Shown here piece after piece: positions 7,100 to 50,303 of a DNA stretch of 55,038 bases. The stretch is from the NCBI GenBank assembly GCA_937921595.1, contig CAKZTD010000122.1:1-55038 (forward strand), read 5' to 3'. A model generated the notes under the pieces. That model ran no database searches. It was not told the origin of the DNA and worked only from the letters and a program-made list of their open reading frames with translations. Every line of letters begins with the position of its first letter. Positions within the stretch are counted from its first letter, which is position 1. The position numbers and the translations under genes are program-made. This stretch comes from an uncultured Saprospiraceae bacterium (GTDB lineage Bacteria; Bacteroidota; Bacteroidia; Chitinophagales; Saprospiraceae).

Positions 7100-7138
7100 C
7101 CCTCACCACTATTTCACGTTAGTGAAATCTACTTCCCG
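7100..7138 (-). repeat. Family A hairpin repeat, locus 1 (one hairpin)
   Basis: On the minus strand the TAG stop of the TlpA-like gene (7129-7131) is followed at once by ATTTCAC-loop-GTGAAAT (7111-7128). The linker AGTGGTGAGGG comes next. The hairpin sequence differs from other family A hairpins, but the flanks (GGGAAGTAG before, AGTGGTGAGGG after) match them. Confidence 0.7.
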
Positions 7139-8562
7139 TCCAATCCTAATTTCTCTCTTTCCAATTTATCCAAATGAAAATCAAGAACCTCTTTCAATTG
7201 ATCACTGCCAATTCCTTTAGAGATGATTTTTTTATCTTTATCTAAAACAAAAACTCTAGGATTACTAGTGATATTGTATTTTGATTTACCTTGAAGATAT
7301 GGATCAGTTACGTGAATCCACCCATCCATTTTACGTTCTTTGATCGCATCCCAGCACATCTTCTTTTCATCCTTTCTTCGATTACAGACGCCAATAACTT
7401 TTACTCCTTTGCTTGCGTATTCGTTATGAAAATCAACAACAAACGGGATTGATTTTTTACAATGTCCACAATCTGGATCCCAGAAATATATAACAGTAAA
7501 ATCTGCTTCTACATCATGAACATTCATCCATTCTGTATTTTCTTTTTGGAAACGAACATTCGGTGCAGGTTTTCCAATCAGAATTGGAGCAAAATCATCT
7601 GCGTTTTTACAAATCTTTGCTCTTTGCTCTTCATCAATCCAATCGGTCTTTCCAGCACAATAATATTTATGCGCTACATGAACATATACTGCATCCATTC
7701 CAACAATTTCGGCAGACTCTTTTGCATATTTATTTAAAAAATGAGTCACCCAATATTGATACGTGTCTTTATTAGGTTGAGCCTTTCCAATGATGTAATC
7801 AATTTCTACAATCAAAGAATCTGGAAGCTTATAGACTAAATTACTAAAATAAGAATCCACTTTACTCAATAATAATGGCGAACGAATTAATCTCGGATCA
7901 GCGAAATCTAAATTATCAAAATAATGGCCTTTATAGAACTCGTATCGTTTTTGCTTTTTCTCATCTTCAGTTCCTGTAAATTCTGGAATATCTACCGACC
8001 AAGAAGCTTTGATAATTGCTGCAGTCAATGAGCCTGGATATTTTTTAACCATCTCTCTCTGAGCAGATTTTACATATTTGTCCAATTCATCTAGCAACTT
8101 ATTGGTTTTTTCTAATTCCGCACCTTCCGCAGTTTCTTTAGTTTTTCTCAAGTCTGCAGCCTCCTTCCCTTTCGATCTCAATATTTTAGAATACTCCTGA
8201 AAAATCCCATTGGCCTTTGAGTTTTCAAACTTCAAAGAACCCGCTAAATCATTTGCTGAGGTTTCTACACTAAAATGCTGATCGTCATTATCAATGAGCA
8301 TTTCGAAATAGTTATTAGAAGGAACCAATAAAACCATATAAATTCCACCTTCTAATGCCTCTTCTCCAGCATATTCAAAAAGTCCAGCTGCATTCCGCTG
8401 GATCGTATCTTTGACCAGTTGTTTTCCATTATAATGATAACCTAAAACAACTTCTTTTTGATCATAATCATTAATCTTGATTTTGATATTGAAACCGTCA
8501 GCAGCAAAAACAGCACTTAATGAAAAGAAAATCAGGGTAAAGAATAAAACAGTTTTTTTCAT
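7129..8562 (-). CDS. Exported TlpA-like thiol:disulfide oxidoreductase (DUF4369/DUF5106 type)
   Basis: This is a periplasmic thioredoxin-fold protein of the TlpA/ResA type, common in Bacteroidota, probably involved in disulfide exchange. It has a signal peptide ending near AVFA. A DUF4369-like beta domain lies at about 20-120 (IKIKINDYDQKEVVLGYHYNGK), and a helical DUF5106-like middle at about 120-320. The C-terminal AhpC/TSA-thioredoxin domain has the redox motif C365-G-H-C368 in YFWDPDCGHCKKSIP. A TTG at 8571 is also in frame; the ATG at 8562 gives the better signal peptide and is chosen. It faces the sigma operon convergently. Its stop codon is embedded in a family A repeat. Confidence 0.87.
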   Translation of the reverse strand: MKKTVLFFTLIFFSLSAVFAADGFNIKIKINDYDQKEVVLGYHYNGKQLVKDTIQRNAAGLFEYAGEEALEGGIYMVLLVPSNNYFEMLIDNDDQHFSVETSANDLAGSLKFENSKANGIFQEYSKILRSKGKEAADLRKTKETAEGAELEKTNKLLDELDKYVKSAQREMVKKYPGSLTAAIIKASWSVDIPEFTGTEDEKKQKRYEFYKGHYFDNLDFADPRLIRSPLLLSKVDSYFSNLVYKLPDSLIVEIDYIIGKAQPNKDTYQYWVTHFLNKYAKESAEIVGMDAVYVHVAHKYYCAGKTDWIDEEQRAKICKNADDFAPILIGKPAPNVRFQKENTEWMNVHDVEADFTVIYFWDPDCGHCKKSIPFVVDFHNEYASKGVKVIGVCNRRKDEKKMCWDAIKERKMDGWIHVTDPYLQGKSKYNITSNPRVFVLDKDKKIISKGIGSDQLKEVLDFHLDKLEREKLGLDGK

Positions 8563-8945
8563 TTTCTTCAATTTTTAGAATTCTATAGGATCTTTGATCT
8601 TTTTATAATTGCAAAATAAGCAATAGCTTTCTTTATTAACGGCATAGCTATTCTAATTATTCTGACTTAGCAATAACGAATATAGTAACAAATTTCACTC
8701 CTTTCAGTCGGAATAAAAAGGAATTTTAACGTCATTAACCATTCCTTAACAAGGAGAAGTCATTTGATAACAATAAGCCGAAAAAATTGTGCTGGATTTG
8801 CTTTAGCACAATGAATCTAAGAGCTTGTTTAACTTATAGATTTTTTTTGAATCAGATAATATTGAAAATTTGAGTCTAACAAAAAAAAGCCATGCAAATA
8901 ATCACATGGCATTTTCGATTTTATCGTAATATTCAAAAAGGAAAA
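8563..8945. other. Gene-free 383 bp between TlpA-like and coiled-coil genes
   Basis: No open frame is credible here. Visible structures are a TTGTGCT (8787-8793) / AGCACAA (8805-8811) hairpin and the terminator-like hairpin at 8879-8910. The 8563-8700 part should hold the promoter of the minus-strand TlpA-like gene, but no clear TAnnTTTG element was found. Confidence 0.5.
8879..8910 (-). terminator. Intrinsic terminator of the coiled-coil gene
   Basis: On the minus strand GCCATG-loop-CATGGC (8910-8905 with 8894-8889) is followed by a T-run (8888 downward). It lies 36 bp past the stop of the gene at 8946. Confidence 0.75.
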
Positions 8946-11900
8946 TTAGTTCTCCTTTTTAATTTGATCTTGCAATTCTTTCAATTGTCTTTTAGCTTCT
9001 TCTATCTGCTTATTGAGCGCATCTAGCTTTTCTTTTTCCTCATTGATCTTAGCTCTTTCCTCCGCTATCCGTTCCGCAGTATCTGCTTTTACAGCATTAA
9101 TTGATTCCTTAGACTCTTGCTTTGATTGGAACACCGCATCAGATGCTTCCTTTTGAGCAGCACTGATTTCTTCCAAAGAAGTTTTACGAGCATTTTCAGC
9201 ATCTTCAATGTATTTGGCTTTCTTAGTATCCGTTTCTTTTCGAATTTCAGCAATCTCATCAGCAGAAACTTGCTGGGCATCCTTGATCGATTTTCTACTA
9301 GCTTCCTCTTCCGTCGCAACTTCTTTTGCCAATTCAGCCAATCGATTATCTCGATCATCTTTTGCCTGAGACATCGCTTCTGCAGCTTGTTGTTTGGTAG
9401 CAGAAACTTCCTGAGCAGCTTCTTCCTGAGTATTTGCGATTTCCTCAGCAGCATCTTCCCGAACTTTTAGAACTTGCAAAGCAGACTCTTCTTTCGCTTT
9501 CGCTGATTTTTCTTTAGCTTCTTTCATCTCATTAGCAGCTTGTTGCTGGATCGCATTGATTTCTTCAGCAGCTTGATCTCTAGCTGTTGCAACACTGTTT
9601 GCAATCTCTTGTTTCTCTCTCGAAGCATCTTCTTTCGTTAACTTGATAGACTCTGCTTCTTCACTTTGAACTTTTGAAATTTGCTCTGCTGCATTTCTTT
9701 TAGCTTCAGAGATACTATTGGAAGACTCTTGATCTGCTAGTGCTACCGCTTCTTTTAATTTTGCGATTTCCTTTGCGCTTTGTTCTCTGATCGTTGTTAA
9801 TTCGGAAGTTGCTTTATCTCTAGCTGCAACCACTTCTTCGGCGGTCATTTTCTTTGTTTCTGTTTCTTTAGATTTTGCATCTGCAATTTTTTGAGCCACC
9901 TCTTCCTGTATTTCTTTTATTTTGCTTTGAGCTTTTGTTTGAGCATCCGCAACATTATTTGCATAATCTCCTTTGGCTTTTTCCGCATTAGCAATTGCTT
10001 CTTGCACTCGCTGAGCAGCTTCTTCTTGAGCTAATTTAATTTCTGATGATGAACGTTCTTTAGCTTTTACCACTTCTTGAGCCGAACTATTTTTAACTTC
10101 TAATTCTGCTTGTTTTGCTTTTTCAATAGCAGCTGCAACTTCCGTTTGAATTTTAGAAATTTCATCGCTAGCCTTTTTTCTTGCAACTTGAACATCAGAA
10201 GCAATTTTTTCTTTTTCAACTTTAGCACTAGCTCTAGAGTCTGCTACTTTTTGAGCTTCTTCTTTTGTGATATCCTGAATCGTAAGGGCCGCTCTAGTTC
10301 TTGCTTCTGAAACATCAGATGCTAAACTAGCTTTCTCTTCATCTGCTTTACGTTTCGCATCCGCGACTTCAGAGGCAGAAGCCGTTTGAGATGAAGTAAT
10401 TTCTGAATTTGCTCTTTCTTTTTCAGAAGCTACTTGTTGTTGAGTTTTAGAAATTTCCTCAGAAGCTTTCTGCTTGGTCTCCGCGACTAATTTCGCTTGA
10501 GATTCTTTTTCTTTGGCTATGTTTTCTTTTAATTCAGCAACTTCATTTGCATTACTTTCTTTGATTAATGCTTGCTCTTCAGCTCCTTTTCTACGAGATT
10601 CAGCAACTTCAAAAGCTACTTTTTCTTTCTCTAAAACTGCATTCTCTTTAATCTGAGCAATCTCTTCAGCAGTTTCTTCTCTTACTTTTAAAATCTGCTC
10701 AGAAGCTGTTTTTTTAGAATTTACAACATCTTCTGTTGTCTTGTTTCTTTCTGTCTTCGCTTTCTCTCTTGCATCTGCGATCATTTCAGCAGTTTCTTCT
10801 CGAATCTTAGACAATTCATTTTGAGAATTCTCTCTCGCCGAAGCAACTTCATCAGCATATTCTAATTTCGCCAATTCAAGGCTTTCTTTTACTTTTTGAA
10901 TTTCTGAAGCCGCTTGATCTCTTGCAGCTGATACTTCTTGAGCAGATTCTATCTTAGCTTTTTGAATTTCTTCTGTTGCTCTTGTTCTTGATTCAACAAC
11001 ATTTGTACTGATTTTTTCTAGCTCTACATTCGCATTGGTTCGAGCATCAGAAACTGAAACAGCAATCGCTTCCTTCTCTTTATCAATTTCTCCTTGAGAA
11101 TTTTGACGAGCTTCTAAAACTTCTTTAGCGTATTGAGCTTTTTTATCTGCTGCTTGTTGCTGAGCGGTTGACACTTCTTGTCGAAGATTTGATTTGATTT
11201 GTTCCGCTTTTTGTTTCTCTGCATCAATCTCTGCTCTTAATCTATCTTTGGTTTCTTTTAATTCCTGTTTTAAACTCGCTAATTCTTCATCGTTTAAAAG
11301 ACTAATATCTGCCACTTTTCTTGTGCCGGAGTTAGTTGAACTCATTGGTCTATCTTTCTTTGGCCCTCCAGTACTCGCTGTTTTTCCTTTTCGAGGCGTA
11401 TAGTCGTTTCCTTTTAAAACAACATCATTTACCTTAGATTTATCTAATGAACTATTAAAACAAGATATGCTACTTTTAAAATCCGCTTGACGACTACCAT
11501 TTACGGTAAACTTGCGCATTTCATTGCTAATATTATTTTTTATATAAATAGTGGTAATTACTGAAGACGAGAACCAATTGATGGCAGCCAGATCTAATTG
11601 TAATATATTTTGGTAAACCGGAGTTCCTCCTTGGCGTACAACTTCTCCCATTCCGATAAAGCGGTAACTTTTTCGATTACTGGAATTATCAACGAAAATG
11701 ATTTCATCTTCCTGATTAAATTCAACACCATTTTTAGAAGAGACTTTAGCAACGACACCTTTTTTGTCATTCATAAACTCAATAGCGTAGCTATAGTTTC
11801 CTCTAACTACAAGAGTCTGAGGTTTCGTCTTTAATTGCTGAAAATTTCCAACAACCTTGTTCTCAGATATCCATGAACCACAGTTTTGGGCAAAGGAAAA

Positions 11901-11957
11901 ATGAGAAATAAAACAAAACAGGATAATGACGGGCAGAGATAAGCAATTATGCTTCAT
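8946..11957 (-). CDS. Exported giant coiled-coil protein built of 40-residue repeats
   Basis: Function is not recognised. The signal peptide ends near FSFAQ. A globular beta-rich head covers about residues 30-190 and contains three cysteines, and a short basic linker follows. The rest is one continuous A/E/K/S-rich coiled coil to the end. Numbered from the in-frame GTG at 11975, residues 286-965 divide into 16 units of exactly 40 residues. Extra modules are 11 residues (within 326-376 and at 875-885) and 18 residues (537-554). Hydrophobic positions 1, 4, 8, 12, 15, 19, 23, 26, 30, 34 and 37 fit three hendecads plus one heptad. ATG 11957 is preferred over GTG 11975 because it gives a compact signal peptide. 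A periplasmic or surface spacer role is inferred. It appears monocistronic, with a terminator at 8879-8910. Confidence 0.82.
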   Translation of the reverse strand: MKHNCLSLPVIILFCFISHFSFAQNCGSWISENKVVGNFQQLKTKPQTLVVRGNYSYAIEFMNDKKGVVAKVSSKNGVEFNQEDEIIFVDNSSNRKSYRFIGMGEVVRQGGTPVYQNILQLDLAAINWFSSSVITTIYIKNNISNEMRKFTVNGSRQADFKSSISCFNSSLDKSKVNDVVLKGNDYTPRKGKTASTGGPKKDRPMSSTNSGTRKVADISLLNDEELASLKQELKETKDRLRAEIDAEKQKAEQIKSNLRQEVSTAQQQAADKKAQYAKEVLEARQNSQGEIDKEKEAIAVSVSDARTNANVELEKISTNVVESRTRATEEIQKAKIESAQEVSAARDQAASEIQKVKESLELAKLEYADEVASARENSQNELSKIREETAEMIADAREKAKTERNKTTEDVVNSKKTASEQILKVREETAEEIAQIKENAVLEKEKVAFEVAESRRKGAEEQALIKESNANEVAELKENIAKEKESQAKLVAETKQKASEEISKTQQQVASEKERANSEITSSQTASASEVADAKRKADEEKASLASDVSEARTRAALTIQDITKEEAQKVADSRASAKVEKEKIASDVQVARKKASDEISKIQTEVAAAIEKAKQAELEVKNSSAQEVVKAKERSSSEIKLAQEEAAQRVQEAIANAEKAKGDYANNVADAQTKAQSKIKEIQEEVAQKIADAKSKETETKKMTAEEVVAARDKATSELTTIREQSAKEIAKLKEAVALADQESSNSISEAKRNAAEQISKVQSEEAESIKLTKEDASREKQEIANSVATARDQAAEEINAIQQQAANEMKEAKEKSAKAKEESALQVLKVREDAAEEIANTQEEAAQEVSATKQQAAEAMSQAKDDRDNRLAELAKEVATEEEASRKSIKDAQQVSADEIAEIRKETDTKKAKYIEDAENARKTSLEEISAAQKEASDAVFQSKQESKESINAVKADTAERIAEERAKINEEKEKLDALNKQIEEAKRQLKELQDQIKKEN

Positions 11958-12098
11958 AAAATAGGATTTTAACACAAAATAAGTGTTTACAAGTTACATA
12001 AAACAATTACAAATGTGTAACCAAAAAGACAAAATATATGATGGGAAAACGTAAAATAACTTTTTTTTATTTGTTTTCTGGAGTCAAAACGTTCAACT

Positions 12099-13031
12099 TT
12101 AACGCTTAGCTGCCAATAAGAATAGAATTGCCATCCGAACTGCTACCCCATTTTCGACTTGCTGAAGGATAATTGACTGTTCAGAATCCGCTACATCACT
12201 GGTTATTTCCACTCCTCTATTGATTGGGCCAGGGTGCATGATGATCACTTCACTGTCTAAACTGTCTAATAATTGCTTATTTATACCAAAATATTGAGAA
12301 TATTCCCGGAGAGATGGGAAATATTTGATATCCTGTCTTTCTAACTGAATTCTTAAAACATTAGCAACATCGCACCATTCCAGTGTTTCTCTTACATTAT
12401 AGCTTACTTCTACTCCTAATTGGTCAATATATTTTGGAATCAATGTCGGAGGTCCGCATACTCTGACCTTAGCTCCTAATTTTTGAAGGCAAAAAATATT
12501 ACTCAAAGCTACTCTTGAGTGGAGTACATCTCCGAAGATCGCAATATTTTTTCCACCCAAGTTTCCTCCGATTGCTTCTCTCATTGAAAAAGCATCTAGC
12601 AAGGCTTGAGTTGGATGCTCATGAGTACCATCACCGGCATTGATAATATTTGCATCAATATGATTGGCAAGAAAAGTCGGAGCTCCAGGAGCAGGATGCC
12701 TCATCACCACCATATCAACTTTCATGGAAAGTATATTATTGACAGTGTCCAACAGGGTTTCTCCTTTTTTGACAGAAGAGGAAGATGCTGAAAAATTGAC
12801 AACATCTGCAGAAAGTCGTTTTTCTGCTAGTTCAAATGATATACGAGTTCGAGTGGAATTTTCAAAAAAGAGATTAGCTACGGTGACGTCTCGAAGAGAA
12901 GGTACTTTTTTGATTGGACGGTTAATAACCTCTTTAAAGTTTTCTGCCGTTTCAAAAATGAGATTAATATCGTTGACGTTTAAGTACTTGATCCCTAAAA
13001 CATGTTTTGTACTGAGTTGTGTTTTGCTCAT
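12099..13031 (-). CDS. pyrB: Aspartate carbamoyltransferase catalytic subunit
   Basis: PyrB joins carbamoyl phosphate and aspartate to form N-carbamoyl-aspartate, the committed step of pyrimidine synthesis in the cytoplasm. The 310-residue length is typical. The carbamoyl-phosphate loop STRTR lies at 59-63 (FFENSTRTRISFELAEKRL). HPTQALLD and the C-terminal MHPGPINRGVEI are also present. It lies 66 bp downstream of pyrR on the same strand. PyrR-PyrB pairing is typical where PyrR controls pyrimidine genes by attenuation, but no antiterminator/terminator pair is clear in the 66-bp gap. Confidence 0.97.
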   Translation of the reverse strand: MSKTQLSTKHVLGIKYLNVNDINLIFETAENFKEVINRPIKKVPSLRDVTVANLFFENSTRTRISFELAEKRLSADVVNFSASSSSVKKGETLLDTVNNILSMKVDMVVMRHPAPGAPTFLANHIDANIINAGDGTHEHPTQALLDAFSMREAIGGNLGGKNIAIFGDVLHSRVALSNIFCLQKLGAKVRVCGPPTLIPKYIDQLGVEVSYNVRETLEWCDVANVLRIQLERQDIKYFPSLREYSQYFGINKQLLDSLDSEVIIMHPGPINRGVEITSDVADSEQSIILQQVENGVAVRMAILFLLAAKR

Positions 13032-23597: not shown

Positions 23598-26500
23598 TTA
23601 CTTCTCTCCTACTGTCACTCGAATTCCTTCGGAATGACTGGTGAATTCTGGTGCGTACATACTTTGAATGGTTGTGATGCCATTTGAAAAATCTCCATTA
23701 TGGATAACTCGCATTGGGTATTCGAATACATAAGTACCTTTTGGTAAATAGCTAAAAAAGAAATTGGTTGCCGCGTCTCTTGTACTTTCGTAATAACCAA
23801 GACCACCTTGCCATTTATAGCTACTTAAAACATTCATCGGTTCAAAACCACTGGCTCGCATGTCCTTCATATGCACATATTCCATATCGCGATCTACGCG
23901 AAGTTCGATTCGAACTTTTAGTTTATCTCCAGGATTTAGTTTTGACCCTTCGGTTAACAAATCCATCTGTGGTCCGGTATCTGTGTTTTTGACTTTGAAT
24001 AATTTTTTATTGATGGTCAAAGGTGTATCCTCGAAGGTTTCGATTTTGTCGAGCTGCTCAAAATACTGCCAGTACATCGCTCCCCAGGCAACCACCTTAT
24101 TTGGATTTTCTACTTTGACCTGACTCATATTATTCTCGATGTCTTCTCCATCCCAAGTCGTTTTAAAATAACCGGTTCCAGCTTCTGTTTCTAATTTACT
24201 TTGATCGATTACTTTATTGCCCATTGTGATTTTCACAGGTTGATCTTCTAGCAACCAATTATCTCCTCGGCGAAGTAAAGCATAAACTGCCGCTGCTGTA
24301 CCTTTGGTTGTTTTCCAATTATTGGTTTGTTTATTTTTTAATAACCAAACCTTCAAATCATCAACAGCTTGAGCATCTTCTGCCACTTCATCAAAAACCT
24401 CAATCATCAAAGCATGTGTTTCGATTGGTAATTGATACCAGTAATAACCAGTTTCATATTTCCAGTACATGCCAAGTTCTTCCTTATTTAGCGAACGTTC
24501 TTTTAGCGATTTAACAATCTCCATTGCCTGATCACTTTTAGGTTTATATCTTTTTAAAGCCAAAGCGATCATCCCTTCAGAGTACATGCCTTTTTTCAAC
24601 CAGTATTTTTCAGATTGACCAAGATAATAATCGAAAGCTGTTTGTGCATTTCTTTTTATCGGCTGATCTTTGAAAAACGAACGCGCATATAAATAATGAA
24701 TCGCTAACGATCCTAAGTGGTCCTTATTGATATCACCACCATGCCGTTTGATTCTTTTTAGTAAACGATCATATTCCTCAGCAATCCGATCATCGATATA
24801 GCTTACTGCTTTGGTTAAAACAGCTTTAGTCTTTGGATCTTCTTTTAGTTCCTTCACACCCAATTCATTTAAATGGCCCATGCCTTCTACCAGGTATTGA
24901 GTGATGTACCAACTATCGCGTCCACCAGGGAACCATGAAAATCCACCGTTTGATAATTGTCGGTCGGTGATTTTTTTCAATGCGATTCGAGATTCATTAC
25001 TCATTCTATTTAAATCGAAAAGCAATCCGATATTTCGTTTTTGTTGTGCTTCACTTTGCGCTTGTAAAACCCAAGGTGTTTCTTCCAGCAATGCCGATTT
25101 AAGTTCTTGATTTTTAGACAAATTACTTTCTAATGCGTCCGTTCCTTTCCAAGCTTCGAAGATTCGTTTCACCTTTGGATGCGAATTGGCCACACTACTA
25201 GCTAGAGCATTTGCATAATATCTACTAAATATCTGCTCCGTACAATCGTAAGGATATTCCATCATATAAGGTAATGCTTGAACCGCATACCATGCAGGAT
25301 TGGAAGTAAACTCCAAGGTCATTTTATGGTGTGTCAATGTTGTCGACCGACTTGCTTTTTCCATTGCTTTGAAAGTAAAATCTTTGGTTTGATTTCCTCT
25401 CACTGGAAGTGGCTGTGTTTCTGTCACCAACATTCGATTGGTCAAAACTGGTAGTGCAGATTCTTCTCCATCGGAGAAAGTATTTGATTTTGCAATCACT
25501 CGGTGTGTGACTGCTCCGAGCTGACCTACTGGGATTTTTAAATTCCAAGCCAAGCGATCAGATTGTCCTGCTTTTGCAGTAAAACTTATGGCATTTGAGG
25601 TGTTTCCTAATTTGCTATCAATCGGCTCCATCGTGATGGCATCGAATAATTGTAGGGTCGCCGTTCCCGAGATTTCTTTCTCAGTTAAATTACTAACCTT
25701 AGCCGTAAATTCGATATCGTCTCCTTCTCTAAAAAACCTTGGTGGATTTGGCAAAACCATAAGATCTTTTTGAGTTACAATCTCTTTAGACGTCAATCCA
25801 ATTTGTAAATCTTTGGTATGTGCCATGCCCATGAATTTCCATCGAGTCAGGGCTTCATTCATTGTAAATTGTACGATCACATTTCCTTCTTCATCAGTTT
25901 TTAAATTTGGAAAGAAGAAAACGGTTTCTTTAAGATTGGTTCTGATTTGTGGTGGATTATCACCTCCATTTTCAGTTCCATCAATATCTAGTTCTGATTC
26001 ATCTATATTACCTGCATCTCCATCTGCATTCCCACTTACACCCGCTGTCGTTGCTGCAATAGCACTGATATCTTTAGTCGGCATATTTTTCATTTCCTTT
26101 TTTGATCTCGACCTTCCAGATGCCTCCGGCTCTTCAGTCATTGGTGCTGACATTGGTGCTTCCATCATTACTGCATCATCCATCATTTCAGCTTCCATAT
26201 AATATTGATTGTAATTATAATTGCTAAACCCAAACCAATTGAGATGTTCTAGATTTCGGTATAAATTCCCGCTAGAATTATTACCTCTATCCCACTGGTA
26301 ATGAATCTCCTGTCCTCTTGATGAGCCAGAGCCATAACTTCTCCACGTATATCTTTTGTAAGCATACGGAAATGGACTTAATCCCCAGCTGTTTGGAGCA
26401 AAAACATCGAGTGATGCATCATACATTCCTGCGACCATTTCAGCCATCACTTTTTCTTTCTTAGGGCCGCTGATCTTTATTTGCCAAGTTTCCTCTTCTC

Positions 26501-29500
26501 CAGGATATAATTTATCTCTGAATGTTCCATATTCTACAGTTAAGTTCTTGTTTGACCAAGGAACTGAAATCGTATAGGCTGTATTATGAAAACGGTTGTT
26601 TTGAGTGAAATAGATGTTATAAAAAAGGTTTCCTCTATGGGTTTCAAGTATTTCTTGAGACTCTTTATTTAAACCATTAATAGTCAGCCATTTCGTTTTT
26701 ACAATCTGATTATTATGTTCTATCTCTACAAGCATTTTTTGATTCTGCTTGAATGATCCTAAAAACCATTCTGCAGTCTCTTCTGGCTCATAAGTATATT
26801 GCTCAGCAATGTGGAAATAAGCTTCATTGGATGGCACTTTAGCACTATTGAGATCATAGATAGTGATGTAATTTTTTAACTCGATTTCTTCTCCAAAAGC
26901 ATCCTTAGTTTTTAAAGTACAGGCATATTTACCAGGAGCGAATCTTGTATTATTGAAAGATAATTCCTTGTTTTTTTCAGTATCAAAATCACTTTCAAAA
27001 ACAGTACTTTCTACTTTCCAATTTTGAACTTTGTCTTCATCTTTATAAGCATAATTTGGAAAGTCATTTGCAAAGTCCTGCTCTGATATAATGTATTGAT
27101 CTGATTGGCTCCAATAGCGATCAATGAAGCTTTTCTTAGGTGTAATTAGCTTTTCGATTTTAAAAGAACCTTTGGCTGCTTCGAATTCGCCATTGAGGTT
27201 TGTGGTGTTGATCGTGGTAGACTTTAAACTATCTGAATTCACCAAACTTTTGATATCAAAACTAGCTTGTAGTGCCACCGTTCCAATAGAAACTCCCTGA
27301 CTTGAAGAATGAGTTTCTCCAGTAATATCGATCACATCAGCATAGACGGTATAGTAAAAAACAGGCTTTGTTTTTTTATCAATTGAAGGATCATCTAAGG
27401 CATCGAATTTGATTTCAAAATTACCCGACTCGTCAGTTTTTGTTTCGCCATTCGTAATTTCAACCGAAGGAGCTGAAGGTCTCCACCAGCCTCTTCTCCA
27501 CCAAGGAAAGTATGGAAATCTAGCTTCCCTAACGACTCGGTAAGTTACTTGAGCTCCATCTATATTACTACCCGCATATGCTTTAGCATTTCCAGTTACA
27601 GTCACCTCCTCTGCTATTTTAAAACTTCCTTTTACCTTATCAAATTTGACTTCAAATTTTGGTCTTTTATAATCCTCAACTCGAAAGTATTTTTGACTAT
27701 TAGAACCACCCCAGCTTGCAGAAATATTCATAGATCCAGTAATCCCATTATTAGGAGCTGTAAAAAATCCATTGATCGTTCCATATTCATTGGTTCGCAA
27801 TTTTACCTTTTCTGCTTCTTGTCGATTGACATCTTTCAAGATAACGGTCACCTCCTCATTCGGCATGATCGTCGGCATTCCTTTGGTGTCGTATGACAAA
27901 GCAATTCCTTTAAAATAAACAGTCTGCCCTGGTCGGTAAATGGCACGATCTAAGTAAAAATGAATCGTACTATTTCTTCTTCGATCAAAAGATCTCGAAA
28001 CATTAGATGCTCTGGTATCAAGATCAAGTACATCTGTTCCTTTTGTAAAAATGGTTTTAAATCTTGCATTATTAGGCAGTGTATTTTTAGCAAATCCATC
28101 TGCATTGGTTGTTGCACTTCCCCTGTTTTTGGTTTCGTATTTCCTTCGGGCGTTATTATATTTTTCTTCAAAAAAGCTAATATTTACACCTTCCATCGGT
28201 TCACCACTTTTCCTACTGGTCACTATAAATTCAGACTTTCCTGCTTGATCATTTCGAATAGAATATGCAATATCCGAAACATGTAAATACAGGTACTGAA
28301 GACTCTTTGCCTTATCTTTTAAATCATTACCATTCGAAAGCGCAATCATATATAATCCATAAGGTAAACCATCGATTTTAGCTTCTAATGTATGCATCCG
28401 AAAATCCCCTACTTGAGGAAAGTCAATAGAAAAACCTTTTAATGGATCTAATTTTAAAATTTCCGTTCCTCTTTTATCCCAATCTGTTCCTTCTATTTTT
28501 TGTTTTTGAGATGGAGACATTGGGATCACCCTTGCGTATGCCTTTTCTAGATTTCGATAAGAAACACTCATCAAAATTGCTTCGTTTGGAAGATTAACCA
28601 ATTCTGCCTGAAACTGAATGTCTTGAATAACCATTCTAGATTTCAATTCCTTACATTGATCCGCACCAAAAGAATCTGGGTATTTCGCAATTGCTTTATC
28701 ACATAATTCTATAGCCGTTTTAAAATAGAATTGTTTTCCATCATCTTGTCCTGGAGAATAATTTGATCCAGCAATGAAGTAATATTCTGCAATCCGATGT
28801 ACTATCTCAGTATAAACAGGGCTATCTTCATTTTCTTTTTCCAGTTTTTCTAAAGACTCCAAATAGATTTTTTCTTTACCTGGAATAACCGCATTATCAT
28901 AAACGAATTTCATTCTACGGAGGTCCGCATAAATTAAAGCATCTTTTGAATCATCGTTTTTATGGAAAGTCAAAAGCTTTTGAAAAAGCTTTACCATTTG
29001 GAGTTTTTGAGAAGTAGAATCTCTGGACTCGAAATTATAATCTACAAACGTCTCCCGATCTGCCAATGCTTCTGGTTGGTTTAGGTAAAACTGGTAAGCC
29101 GGTTTCGTTAAATACGTTCTGTCATTTGAAAAATGGGTGATTGCTCGATAGACTAAAAAATCGAAAAGCGTTGGTTGTAAACCTTCGGCATTATTTCCAG
29201 AATGTAAAATCGCTTGAAATTCTGAAAGTTTGATTTGCTGAGTAGCATCATCATTGATGGAAGCTAGATAAAGTTCTCTAGATTTTTTTGACAATTGCCC
29301 TGTAGTCCAAGTTGCCATATCTTCTGGCGTAAAATCAGCCAATTCCGTTCGATCTCTGAGTTTCCATTGGTTTTGATTGAGATAGTTTTGATACATCTCT
29401 GCCATCATGGATTCTAATATCTTATTTTGAGGGAAGCTCGCATTCTCAATATGAGTTTCCATGTCTTTGATGGCTTTCACAAATCCACCTTCTTCTAATT

Positions 29501-29789
29501 GGGTATTGTACTTCCCTAGATAAATAAGGCATTTTATAATTTGTGCAGGGACTTTATCACTTTGAACTCTGGTATAAAGTTCTTGCACTTTTTCTAAAGC
29601 TGATTTGGGTAATCCTCTTTGATCTAGAGAATCTATGGTCTTCCACTCTTTTTCGTAACTATCGTTATTGAGATTTATCATCTGAGGATTGTTGATCTGT
29701 TTTGCTATTGCTTTATTTTTATTTGTATTGCAAGCGAATAAAATAAAAATAAAGAAGGGAATTGAGAATAAGAAAAATTGTTTTTTCAT
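23598..29789 (-). CDS. Alpha-2-macroglobulin family lipoprotein
   Basis: Bacterial alpha-2-macroglobulins trap proteases in the periplasm or at the surface, using an internal thioester. This 2063-residue protein has a lipobox ending at Cys20 (FILFAC). A helical N-terminal region (about 30-400) with tetratrico-like character comes first. An MG2 domain lies near 605-700 (DRAIYRPGQTVYFKG). A low-complexity Met/Ala/Glu segment occurs near 1195-1230. The conserved A2M segment is near 1290 (DEEGNVIVQFTMNEALTRWKF). The helical thioester domain carries C1516-T-E-Q1519 in YPYDCTEQIFSR, so the thioester is probably functional. The usual partner pbpC is not adjacent. It is monocistronic; an interleaved hairpin follows its stop. 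Confidence 0.93.
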   Translation of the reverse strand: MKKQFFLFSIPFFIFILFACNTNKNKAIAKQINNPQMINLNNDSYEKEWKTIDSLDQRGLPKSALEKVQELYTRVQSDKVPAQIIKCLIYLGKYNTQLEEGGFVKAIKDMETHIENASFPQNKILESMMAEMYQNYLNQNQWKLRDRTELADFTPEDMATWTTGQLSKKSRELYLASINDDATQQIKLSEFQAILHSGNNAEGLQPTLFDFLVYRAITHFSNDRTYLTKPAYQFYLNQPEALADRETFVDYNFESRDSTSQKLQMVKLFQKLLTFHKNDDSKDALIYADLRRMKFVYDNAVIPGKEKIYLESLEKLEKENEDSPVYTEIVHRIAEYYFIAGSNYSPGQDDGKQFYFKTAIELCDKAIAKYPDSFGADQCKELKSRMVIQDIQFQAELVNLPNEAILMSVSYRNLEKAYARVIPMSPSQKQKIEGTDWDKRGTEILKLDPLKGFSIDFPQVGDFRMHTLEAKIDGLPYGLYMIALSNGNDLKDKAKSLQYLYLHVSDIAYSIRNDQAGKSEFIVTSRKSGEPMEGVNISFFEEKYNNARRKYETKNRGSATTNADGFAKNTLPNNARFKTIFTKGTDVLDLDTRASNVSRSFDRRRNSTIHFYLDRAIYRPGQTVYFKGIALSYDTKGMPTIMPNEEVTVILKDVNRQEAEKVKLRTNEYGTINGFFTAPNNGITGSMNISASWGGSNSQKYFRVEDYKRPKFEVKFDKVKGSFKIAEEVTVTGNAKAYAGSNIDGAQVTYRVVREARFPYFPWWRRGWWRPSAPSVEITNGETKTDESGNFEIKFDALDDPSIDKKTKPVFYYTVYADVIDITGETHSSSQGVSIGTVALQASFDIKSLVNSDSLKSTTINTTNLNGEFEAAKGSFKIEKLITPKKSFIDRYWSQSDQYIISEQDFANDFPNYAYKDEDKVQNWKVESTVFESDFDTEKNKELSFNNTRFAPGKYACTLKTKDAFGEEIELKNYITIYDLNSAKVPSNEAYFHIAEQYTYEPEETAEWFLGSFKQNQKMLVEIEHNNQIVKTKWLTINGLNKESQEILETHRGNLFYNIYFTQNNRFHNTAYTISVPWSNKNLTVEYGTFRDKLYPGEEETWQIKISGPKKEKVMAEMVAGMYDASLDVFAPNSWGLSPFPYAYKRYTWRSYGSGSSRGQEIHYQWDRGNNSSGNLYRNLEHLNWFGFSNYNYNQYYMEAEMMDDAVMMEAPMSAPMTEEPEASGRSRSKKEMKNMPTKDISAIAATTAGVSGNADGDAGNIDESELDIDGTENGGDNPPQIRTNLKETVFFFPNLKTDEEGNVIVQFTMNEALTRWKFMGMAHTKDLQIGLTSKEIVTQKDLMVLPNPPRFFREGDDIEFTAKVSNLTEKEISGTATLQLFDAITMEPIDSKLGNTSNAISFTAKAGQSDRLAWNLKIPVGQLGAVTHRVIAKSNTFSDGEESALPVLTNRMLVTETQPLPVRGNQTKDFTFKAMEKASRSTTLTHHKMTLEFTSNPAWYAVQALPYMMEYPYDCTEQIFSRYYANALASSVANSHPKVKRIFEAWKGTDALESNLSKNQELKSALLEETPWVLQAQSEAQQKRNIGLLFDLNRMSNESRIALKKITDRQLSNGGFSWFPGGRDSWYITQYLVEGMGHLNELGVKELKEDPKTKAVLTKAVSYIDDRIAEEYDRLLKRIKRHGGDINKDHLGSLAIHYLYARSFFKDQPIKRNAQTAFDYYLGQSEKYWLKKGMYSEGMIALALKRYKPKSDQAMEIVKSLKERSLNKEELGMYWKYETGYYWYQLPIETHALMIEVFDEVAEDAQAVDDLKVWLLKNKQTNNWKTTKGTAAAVYALLRRGDNWLLEDQPVKITMGNKVIDQSKLETEAGTGYFKTTWDGEDIENNMSQVKVENPNKVVAWGAMYWQYFEQLDKIETFEDTPLTINKKLFKVKNTDTGPQMDLLTEGSKLNPGDKLKVRIELRVDRDMEYVHMKDMRASGFEPMNVLSSYKWQGGLGYYESTRDAATNFFFSYLPKGTYVFEYPMRVIHNGDFSNGITTIQSMYAPEFTSHSEGIRVTVGEK

Positions 29790-48683: not shown

Positions 48684-48785
48684 ATCCCTATTTTGATTCA
48701 TCAAAATCTCATCACTATTCCGATTCCTCGGAATCTATCCCTCATCACTATTTCACCATTGCGAAATCTATCATCTCATTCCCGA
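48684..48785 (-). repeat. Family A hairpin repeat, locus 4 (three hairpins)
   Basis: In plus coordinates: ATTTTGAT-TC-ATCAAAAT (48690-48707, perfect), ATTCCGA-TTCC-TCGGAAT (48717-48734, perfect), and TTTC...GAAA (48751-48766). Linkers CTCATCACT and CTATCCCTCATCACT separate them. It starts at the TGA stop of the TIR gene and reads in that gene's sense on the minus strand. Confidence 0.8.
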
Positions 48786-50303
48786 CGAAAACGCACCTTG
48801 TGCAGAAGGCCGATTTATTTTTTTAAAAACATAACGATTGCCATCTACACCCATTCCAAAATATTGGCCATTTTGTTCTTGTTGAATTTGTACTGCAAAC
48901 TCAAAAGGAAAGCCACTCATGTAGCCCATGATATAAATGTAGTTATTTTGAAAACTCCAATTCCCTGTAAAAGGAACATAAACTTGTTTTCCATTTAAGC
49001 TACCATTTGGAAATAAATTCAAATACATAGTATTAGGAATAAAGCTATGGATTTCTACTTCCCACTCTCCTACCGGATTGAATGGTTGAGTTCTAGGAAG
49101 AGGCGGAGGCGTTGGTGATTTTGGAATCTGTGGAATCTTTGGTTCTTTTGATATTTCAGCATAAGCTAACATCTCTTCACAATCTGCAACTAATTGTTTA
49201 TGCCCTAAACTTTTAAAAGTCTTTTTTGCTTTTCGAAGCAAATCTACATCGAGATGATCCATACTCGAAGTCGCCAACATAAATCGAGCTTGAGCTAAAT
49301 AAAATGCGGTATCATCATCTTTTGGATTTTGTACCATCAATTCAATTTGCTCTAAAATCGCTTCTTCATCTGTGGTATCATCTGGCGTCAAAATGACCAA
49401 TACCTTCGCCATTTCTAAAAGCGTTTCAATATTATTAGGTTCTAGTTTATTAGCTTGTTCTAATAAATTAAAAGCTTGTTCCAACTTTTTGTGATCATCA
49501 TGCCGAATGGAAGACTTATGCAAAAGGATTGCTTTTTTTAACAACAAATCTGCTCTCGAAAATTCAATATCATCCACTACCACGGAAGATACTTTATCAG
49601 ATTTCGTCAAAAAGCTATCAATAATTTTTTCTTGTTTTTCATTACCCATTCCATTTTGAATACCACCGATATCTCCAGCCGTATTGATGGAATGCACATT
49701 CATAACTTCGACTGCCTCTTTATAATCTTTTAAAGATGGATTTTTAATTTCTAATTTATCATTCGTGATCACCTCTTCGGTCTGTCCAAGTTCTTTTCGA
49801 TTTGCGAACTTTACCACTCGAACAATTTCGTTCACCACTTTCAAAAAAGCATCATCTGCATTTTCCCAATGTTTATGAACGACTGGATATTTTTCTGAAG
49901 GAAGCATTTTCAATTTCGTCAACACAGTAGTTTCCATATAAGTCGTCCTCAACATCACTGGAATTACAAAGGCATTTTGATCTTCTTTTTCATGACGATC
50001 TAATGCTAGTTTTAAATCCTCAATACAATTTTCATCATTAAAAAAATCAACACTAATCAGAAGCAGGATAATATCACTATCCATAATTCGTCGAGTCTCT
50101 TCCTCATTGACATCCAAGCCAGCTTCGATTTCATCCCAGACAGCAATCAATTTACGCCGCTCTAGCATAGCCAGATGCTTTTTCAATTGGAGCGCTAATT
50201 TATCATCCTGAGATTCTTTCGCCCAAGAAATATATAGTTTTAAGGTTTTTTCTAATTCTGGCATATCGATGCTACTACTGTGCTTTAAAAGTGATTTATT
50301 CAA
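48771..50303 (-). CDS. TIR-domain protein with TPR-like region and C-terminal beta domain
   Basis: The protein has an N-terminal bacterial TIR domain (about 20-165): KLYISWAKESQDDKLALQLKKHLAMLERRKLIAVWDEIEAGLD, DSDIILLLISVDFFND, FVIPVMLR. A flexible GDIGGIQNG linker follows, then a helical TPR-like region (about 235-395), a proline-rich spacer and a beta-rich tail (NPVGEWEVEIHSFIPNTMYLNLFPNGS). TIR domains may cleave NAD or act in signalling and defence. The usual catalytic-Glu region reads C93-I-E-D-L, one residue shorter than typical, so activity is uncertain. It is monocistronic and its stop begins a family A repeat. Confidence 0.82.
   Translation of the reverse strand: MNKSLLKHSSSIDMPELEKTLKLYISWAKESQDDKLALQLKKHLAMLERRKLIAVWDEIEAGLDVNEEETRRIMDSDIILLLISVDFFNDENCIEDLKLALDRHEKEDQNAFVIPVMLRTTYMETTVLTKLKMLPSEKYPVVHKHWENADDAFLKVVNEIVRVVKFANRKELGQTEEVITNDKLEIKNPSLKDYKEAVEVMNVHSINTAGDIGGIQNGMGNEKQEKIIDSFLTKSDKVSSVVVDDIEFSRADLLLKKAILLHKSSIRHDDHKKLEQAFNLLEQANKLEPNNIETLLEMAKVLVILTPDDTTDEEAILEQIELMVQNPKDDDTAFYLAQARFMLATSSMDHLDVDLLRKAKKTFKSLGHKQLVADCEEMLAYAEISKEPKIPQIPKSPTPPPLPRTQPFNPVGEWEVEIHSFIPNTMYLNLFPNGSLNGKQVYVPFTGNWSFQNNYIYIMGYMSGFPFEFAVQIQQEQNGQYFGMGVDGNRYVFKKINRPSAQGAFSSGMR

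Follow-up and report, generated by a model that had tools for sequence, protein, structure and literature searches.

An exported rod protein with a strict 40-residue repeat

The window analyzed here (the whole stretch of 55,038 nucleotides from an uncultured Saprospiraceae bacterium) encodes a protein of ~1000 residues in which a signal peptide, a β-rich head of ~150 residues with two cysteines and a linker precede a ~780-residue helical rod built on a 40-residue coiled-coil repeat. Our tentative reading, which may well prove right, is that of a Sec-exported fibrous envelope protein whose chains would form parallel, in-register and nearly straight rod pairs of ~115 nm, with such rods packing side by side into a fibre or mesh. 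The reading frame lies on the minus strand, with its stop at 8946 and candidate starts at GTG 11975 and ATG 11957. The first-pass annotation had the frame and its coordinates right, and its picture of an exported protein with a signal peptide, a globular head and a coiled-coil rod is borne out. Since homologues place the signal peptide there too, ATG 11957 (residue 7 when numbered from the GTG) is most likely the true start. The features of the gene are as follows, with residues numbered from the GTG unless stated otherwise.

11889..11957, minus strand: signal peptide, residues 7-29; from the sequence, with cleavage placed by eye after ...FSFA and before QNC
11430..11888, minus strand: head domain, mature residues 1-153; structure model with 11 strands and 2 helices, invariant cysteines C3 and C143
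11307..11429, minus strand: low-complexity linker from head to rod; from the sequence, with pLDDT <50 at model residues 165-175
11121..11306, minus strand: first rod part, residues 224-285, ahead of the strict repeats; from the sequence, and the lag analysis of residues 229-1009 also peaks at 40
9081..11120, minus strand: rod of 40-residue repeats, residues 286-965; lag 40 with z=17.3, circular HMM, Fourier peak at 3.635
10909..10929, minus strand: phase break 1, approximate, near residue 353, one additional hendecad; circular HMM, 60/63 proteins
10411..10431, minus strand: phase break 2, approximate, near residue 519, 18 additional residues, the chief indel site in the family; circular HMM
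9409..9429, minus strand: phase break 3, approximate, near residue 853, one additional hendecad; circular HMM, 49/63 proteins
8949..9080, minus strand: C-terminal end, residues 966-1009, a leucine/isoleucine-rich heptad-like segment and then a charged tail; from the sequence
8889..8910, minus strand: hairpin resembling a terminator, with a T run behind it, 35 bases past the stop codon; the sole such site in 8400-12200

An [AGS]-Q-x-C junction stands at the matching place in homologues, with few variants. Inspection by eye reveals no lipobox with a cysteine at +1, the first cysteine falling at least one residue past the cleavage site in the Q-x-C context, and no hydrophobic segment after the signal peptide; Pfam gives no anchor domain. 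No C-terminal sorting domain of Type IX secretion cargo is matched in Pfam or NCBIfam at E<=1, and the C-terminus looks helical, although the protein may still be Type IX cargo with some unrecognized signal. Sec would thus export the protein, and with no lipobox, sorting domain or anchor recognized, a periplasmic location would follow by default. The terminator-like hairpin is weak evidence by itself (1 site observed in 8400-12200 versus 2.7 expected in shuffles); the fold z for 8850-8960 is -3.6.

The repeat consists of three hendecads and one heptad

Each protein was compared with itself at increasing offsets. For residues 286-965 of the window protein, none of 200 lags scores higher than lag 40 (z=17.3, with 28% of residues identical), as the first-pass annotation had anticipated, and lags 80 and 120 rank next. 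Lags 11, 18, 22, 29 and 51 are raised as well, as expected of a mixture of hendecads and heptads, and lags 7 and 14 are flat (z 0.2 and 0.0). A circular 40-state HMM was trained on 63 proteins, the window protein included; N-termini were mis-set in four rows during training (L043, L050, L058 and L084) and corrected for length, indel and later counts. In the window protein it sets three phase breaks and no more; the states skipped there number 29, 22 and 29, which equal insertions of 11, 18 and 11 residues modulo 40. The two analyses together confirm the proposed division of residues 286-965 into 16 units of 40 plus three extra pieces, down to the lengths of those pieces. The window protein, itself part of the training set, scores 427. 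Sixty shuffles that exchange residues only inside their own class (VILMFYW, AGST or polar), and so keep the class pattern, score 62 +/- 19 and reach at most 103. That is to say, most of the score is lost when only residue identities are exchanged, so that the 40-residue identity pattern exceeds a generic coil pattern.

The family profile reads 11+11+7+11 (hendecad, hendecad, heptad, hendecad), with valine or isoleucine at states 12, 23 and 34, alanine at 15, 19 and 37, glutamate at 11 and 22, basic residues at 5, 16 and 38, and glutamine, arginine or lysine at 27. Ten of the 11 hydrophobic positions first assigned to the unit hold in this profile when alanine is counted as hydrophobic; position 34 does not, as the corresponding state 5 (in our mapping) is mostly lysine and its neighbour mostly glutamate or alanine. 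Fourier analysis yields a hydrophobic period of 3.635 both for the window rod and for the mean of the 63 proteins, where 40/11 is 3.636. Profile and period together support the coiled coil of hendecads and a heptad that had been proposed. An undistorted α-helix has a period of 3.63, according to a passage of PMC9858780, and a nearly straight coil is expected from this agreement.

The composition of the rod also brings to mind a flexible or single-helix stress protein, with LEA-like 11-mers or an ER/K single helix and no coiled coil at all. The richness in alanine, glutamate and lysine and the 11-residue periodicity are what such a protein would display. In contrast, states 12, 23 and 34 are 92-97% V/I/L/M/F/Y/W, the peak at 3.635 is sharp, opposite-charge pairs from i to i+4 rise only modestly above expectation (29 and 41 versus 25), and both register and length are conserved. 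We regard a single helix as very unlikely.

Length and register are nearly fixed across the family

The set of 63 proteins was built from 71 match rows, of which nine are absent, with L033 added. Those left out are the contig-truncated G190 and G196, G238:C24, the head-only G362:C91 (L064), the CHAT-type paralogues L070, L072 and L073 (L073 being identical to L072), G144 (L071) and a G302 copy identical to L062. Four near-identical rows (L065-L068) were kept, as was L069 from another family of the order, which was excluded from identity comparisons (62 proteins). Lag 40 exceeds z=5 in 62/63 proteins and is the top lag in 53/63.

Mature length falls between 920 and 1040 residues in 60/63 proteins. 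Set against the window protein, 44 homologues (>38% identity, rod ends left out) divide into 11 whose rod carries no indel, 29 with a single one of 11, 18, 22 or 29 residues, and four messier cases (L036, L044, L091 and L094). Across 906 pairs above 40% identity, which are not independent of one another, the rod gaps number 1191, of which 966 measure 4, 7, 11, 18, 22 or 29 residues and only three measure 40. The earlier proposal of growth by whole coiled-coil modules is thus upheld in one respect, in that 40 of the 44 homologues differ by nothing or by one such module; the number of 40-residue units, however, is not growing. Phase break 1 sits at mature position 320.6 +/- 7.9 in the proteins that have it. 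Mapped onto a midpoint-rooted head tree by Fitch parsimony, with HMM calls (composite ones included) as states, break 2 changes state 16 times, break 3 12 times and break 1 three times.

For the 568 pairs whose rods are 45-90% identical, identity is 51% at orthologous rod positions and 0.27 (27%) between units inside the same protein, which indicates that the duplication predates the family. No DNA-level tandem array of a 120-base unit is found, and the repeat must therefore be old. A recently expanding tandem repeat of drifting unit number, in which the 40-residue unit has no specific role, would find its best cases in the shorter lineages: g22, with frames of 688 and 691 residues, three g52 genomes with 886-899 beside others with 1035-1036, and g59 with 914 and 917. 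The missing 120-base array, the narrow range of lengths, the rarity of 40-residue indels and the closer match of orthologous units than of units within one protein all speak against such expansion, which we consider hardly credible. Growth by 40-residue units is, as judged from these comparisons, ancient, and length and breakpoints are now nearly fixed.

Lineage g22 also provides a separate observation: L091:283-2268 (G188) and G868 have a far shorter rod, with a mature L091 of 662 residues, and offer a natural experiment on the role of length. Taken as a whole, the family offers coiled-coil biology a natural record of tolerated module changes, in a natural rod of ~700 residues whose hydrophobic period is that of the undistorted α-helix and whose register is kept across a bacterial family.

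Rod conservation favours specific packing over a passive spacer

Another possible role for this exported head-plus-rod protein is that of a passive spacer or stalk, in which a single rod holds the head ~115 nm from an anchoring point, on the outer cell face or along the envelope, and only length is selected. The layout and the near-constant length suit this role, the outline resembles the Omp-alpha rod of Thermotoga as described in an excerpt of PMC5082667, and outer rod positions are less conserved than the core. The same excerpt states that spacer coils keep their length and diverge maximally in sequence, and that near-invariance in sequence and length alike reveals a coil with a role over its entire length.

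To compare the two parts of the protein, pairwise identities were calculated for head and rod. Over all 1830 usable pairs of the 62 proteins, mean identity is 0.390 for the head and 0.404 for the rod; that is, the two are about equally conserved, in contrast to what a spacer would suggest. Selecting pairs on rod identity favours the rod, hence the use of all 1830 pairs and of 509 pairs selected on head identity, where the head reaches 0.548 and the rod 0.496. Among the 568 pairs selected at 45-90% rod identity, head and rod tie at 0.507 and 0.508, and rod identity divides into 0.61 at core, 0.59 at core-flanking and 0.43 at outer positions. Individual units remain recognizable in near relatives: of 13 homologues compared, three (the lowest at 49% rod identity) have all 17 window units matching their orthologous unit best, which again argues against a spacer. 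The other ten give 3 to 15 of 17, and the distant homologues L036, L052, L060 and L065 only 3 to 8, a point against the packing reading. The 63 proteins contain no cysteine in 46,777 rod residues past mature position 230, and no proline in the same stretches once the last 15 residues of each are set aside.

These comparisons speak for rods that pair and pack specifically more than for a passive spacer, with the qualification that part of the conservation is that of the core alone, that helix pairing may explain much of it and that the rod is far from invariant. The C-terminus is a short charged tail, and Pfam gives no anchor domain; both count against a stalk. The periplasmic or surface spacer first suggested for this protein is accordingly not favoured in its plain surface form, given the similar conservation of rod and head, the lack of a recognized lipobox, sorting domain or anchor, and a length of ~115 nm that is long for a strut spanning the periplasm. 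A passive spacer is possible but on balance unlikely.

A proposed model of paired rods in the envelope

Under the preferred reading of a fibrous envelope protein, two chains would pair in parallel and in register to form a stiff, alanine-rich, nearly straight coil, whose ~115 nm is calculated at 0.15 nm per residue. Straight, in-register pairing is suggested by the closeness of the hydrophobic period to the natural period of the α-helix, and a parallel pair by the alanine-rich hendecad core, as in the dimers FilP and Scy; an excerpt of PMC9858780 associates such cores with dimers in these two proteins. The rod is thus probably a parallel dimer. Antiparallel pairing was also considered, since breaks 1 and 3 lie roughly symmetrically about the rod middle; single uncompensated indels at break 2 appear to fit a parallel arrangement better.

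The heads would lie together at one end, pinned by a disulfide. A length of ~115 nm exceeds the usual width of the periplasm, and so the rod is expected either to run along the envelope or to exit the cell. With less confidence, we propose that rods pack laterally in steps of one unit (~5.9 nm) to give a fibre or mesh lying in the envelope plane, where the head would anchor the fibre or cap its ends. Charge and shape that recur every 5.9 nm are suited to stepwise lateral packing, and packing of this kind would require what the rod displays, namely a constant length, a constant register and a strongly conserved sequence. The protein provides a concrete candidate for an envelope fibre in this group and predicts a 5.9 nm axial repeat and ~115 nm rods for electron microscopy. 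A bolder version, which we think improbable, makes it the building block of a Saprospiraceae envelope fibre not described before: a periplasmic, intermediate-filament-like exoskeleton of straight 40/11-repeat rods side by side at a 5.9 nm step, possibly corresponding to the bundle fibres of Saprospira grandis.

Distribution and the gliding machinery

The head is matched in 203/399 sampled genomes of Saprospiraceae, leaving about half of the family without it, which counts against the preferred reading. In a sample of the order it occurs in 66/396 genomes, 64 of which (window included) belong to the window's family, and in a sample of the phylum in 4/395, all from that family. Both relatives that bear names belong to Saprospiraceae. 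In genomes of group g37 the gene is present, its frames measuring 975-983 residues, and within the window's own genome the head as query returns a single match, the window itself. Substitute rods are absent from 20/20 family genomes without a head match when the rod is used as query (positive control 8/8). The family is old and well kept, and neither Pfam nor NCBIfam has a name for it.

The rod might be a lineage-specific part of a gliding or envelope fibre system. S. grandis, in the portion of PMC9870892 that bears on it, has 7.5 nm bundle fibres of unidentified composition and most Gld/Spr orthologues, and the rod could belong to such fibres. Similar fibres are reported in Flavobacterium, yet the phylum sample yields matches in the window's family only. 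Further, the presence of the rod does not follow the gliding-core marker GldJ: model TIGR03524 matches 40/40 genomes (20 with the rod and 20 without), at E<=1e-94 in 39 and weakly in one without the rod, although its curated cut-off is passed in 1/40 and 2/14 control genomes also match. The gliding marker was therefore ruled out as a correlate of the rod, and membership of a gliding or fibre system of this kind is quite unlikely.

Outside the window's family, L069 (family f2, same order) shares the head, here at L069:1860-4397 on a coil whose best lag is 18 (11+7; z 8.8), not 40 (z 2.0). This 18-residue coil is a possible ancestral form of the repeat, and the 40-residue unit could derive from an 18-residue unit and two hendecads.

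Comparison with known coiled-coil systems

Scy and FilP of Streptomyces are cytoplasmic, and Walshaw et al. 2010 reportedly described a 51-residue unit of hendecads and a heptad in their class. Like these proteins, the window rod is a very long, alanine-rich and hendecad-dominated coiled coil, as the family profile and 3.635 period indicate. Unlike these actinobacterial proteins, the window protein belongs to Bacteroidota and has a signal peptide, an unrelated head and a 40-residue unit. FilP forms filaments, as stated in a passage of PMC6599971, and the N-terminus of Scy/FilP is described as DivIVA-like in part of PMC9858780. Over its full length the window protein matches no Pfam family at E<=1, a DivIVA-like domain included, and its N-terminus is instead the signal peptide and β-rich head.

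The head of Omp-alpha is an SLH domain. The stalk of Tetrabrachion (Staphylothermus) is an exported hendecad coil that forms a long stiff rod, a four-stranded archaeal surface stalk with a protease. Tetrabrachion and the window rod are thus both exported hendecad coils, and no PDB sequence matches the window rod at E<=0.001. Omp-alpha of Thermotoga maritima, in the excerpt of PMC5082667, is an outer-membrane protein with a 50 nm rod that spans the periplasm and is described as a spacer. Both it and the window protein, by predicted export, are envelope rods, but the window rod would be more than twice as long at its calculated ~115 nm, and Pfam reveals neither an SLH head nor an outer-membrane anchor, with no hydrophobic segment seen by eye past the signal peptide. 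The open-licence literature searched yields no paper that joins Saprospiraceae with coiled coils or a 40-residue repeat with a coiled coil. Hendecad-heptad coils are already known; the 40-residue version appears to be a new one, with a putative and testable role.

The head domain and its other carriers

Neither Pfam nor NCBIfam matches the whole protein at E<=1, and PADLOC gives no match either. A Pfam match of the N-terminal part alone (E=0.21) missed the cut-off and was taken as chance. The best PDB sequence match of the head profile, at E 0.39, is not significant. Structural comparison places IalB (PDB 3dtd) against the head model at 7% identity and rmsd 4.6, a result of the VIA-align comparison alone that may miss other folds. 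No sequence match to IalB accompanies it, the window protein having no Pfam match at E<=1, and the same holds among the 25 listed families (of 37) in a scan of 46 members.

Exported TPR-CHAT proteins of Saprospiraceae share the head domain in one to four copies, with TPR and CHAT (caspase-like) domains in place of the rod. These are L142:859-6201, L143:1855-5784, L144:2211-5111, L070:1923-4715 and L072:1921-4710, assigned by Pfam except for L144, which has a similar C-terminal end. Each has a signal peptide by eye, L143 has a hydrophobic C-terminal segment after CHAT, and the head may serve to address these proteins. L145:3695-4249 is a stand-alone head protein of 149 residues past its signal peptide, and L146:2951-3748 may be another, less clear one.

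Gene neighbourhood

No constant partner gene accompanies the rod gene across 41 loci, one of which is present twice, and this too counts against the preferred reading. Clusters that occupy the positions of pyrR and pyrB in the window recur in 17/41 loci, and a TlpA-like gene lies downstream in 14/41 (homology judged by eye). None of these neighbours, though common, is constant enough to be named as an operon partner. In the window itself, 7129-8571 encodes a TlpA-like thioredoxin protein with DUF4369/DUF5106, 48771-50303 is a reading frame with an N-terminal TIR domain, and 23598-29789 encodes an alpha-2-macroglobulin-like protein of 2063 residues.
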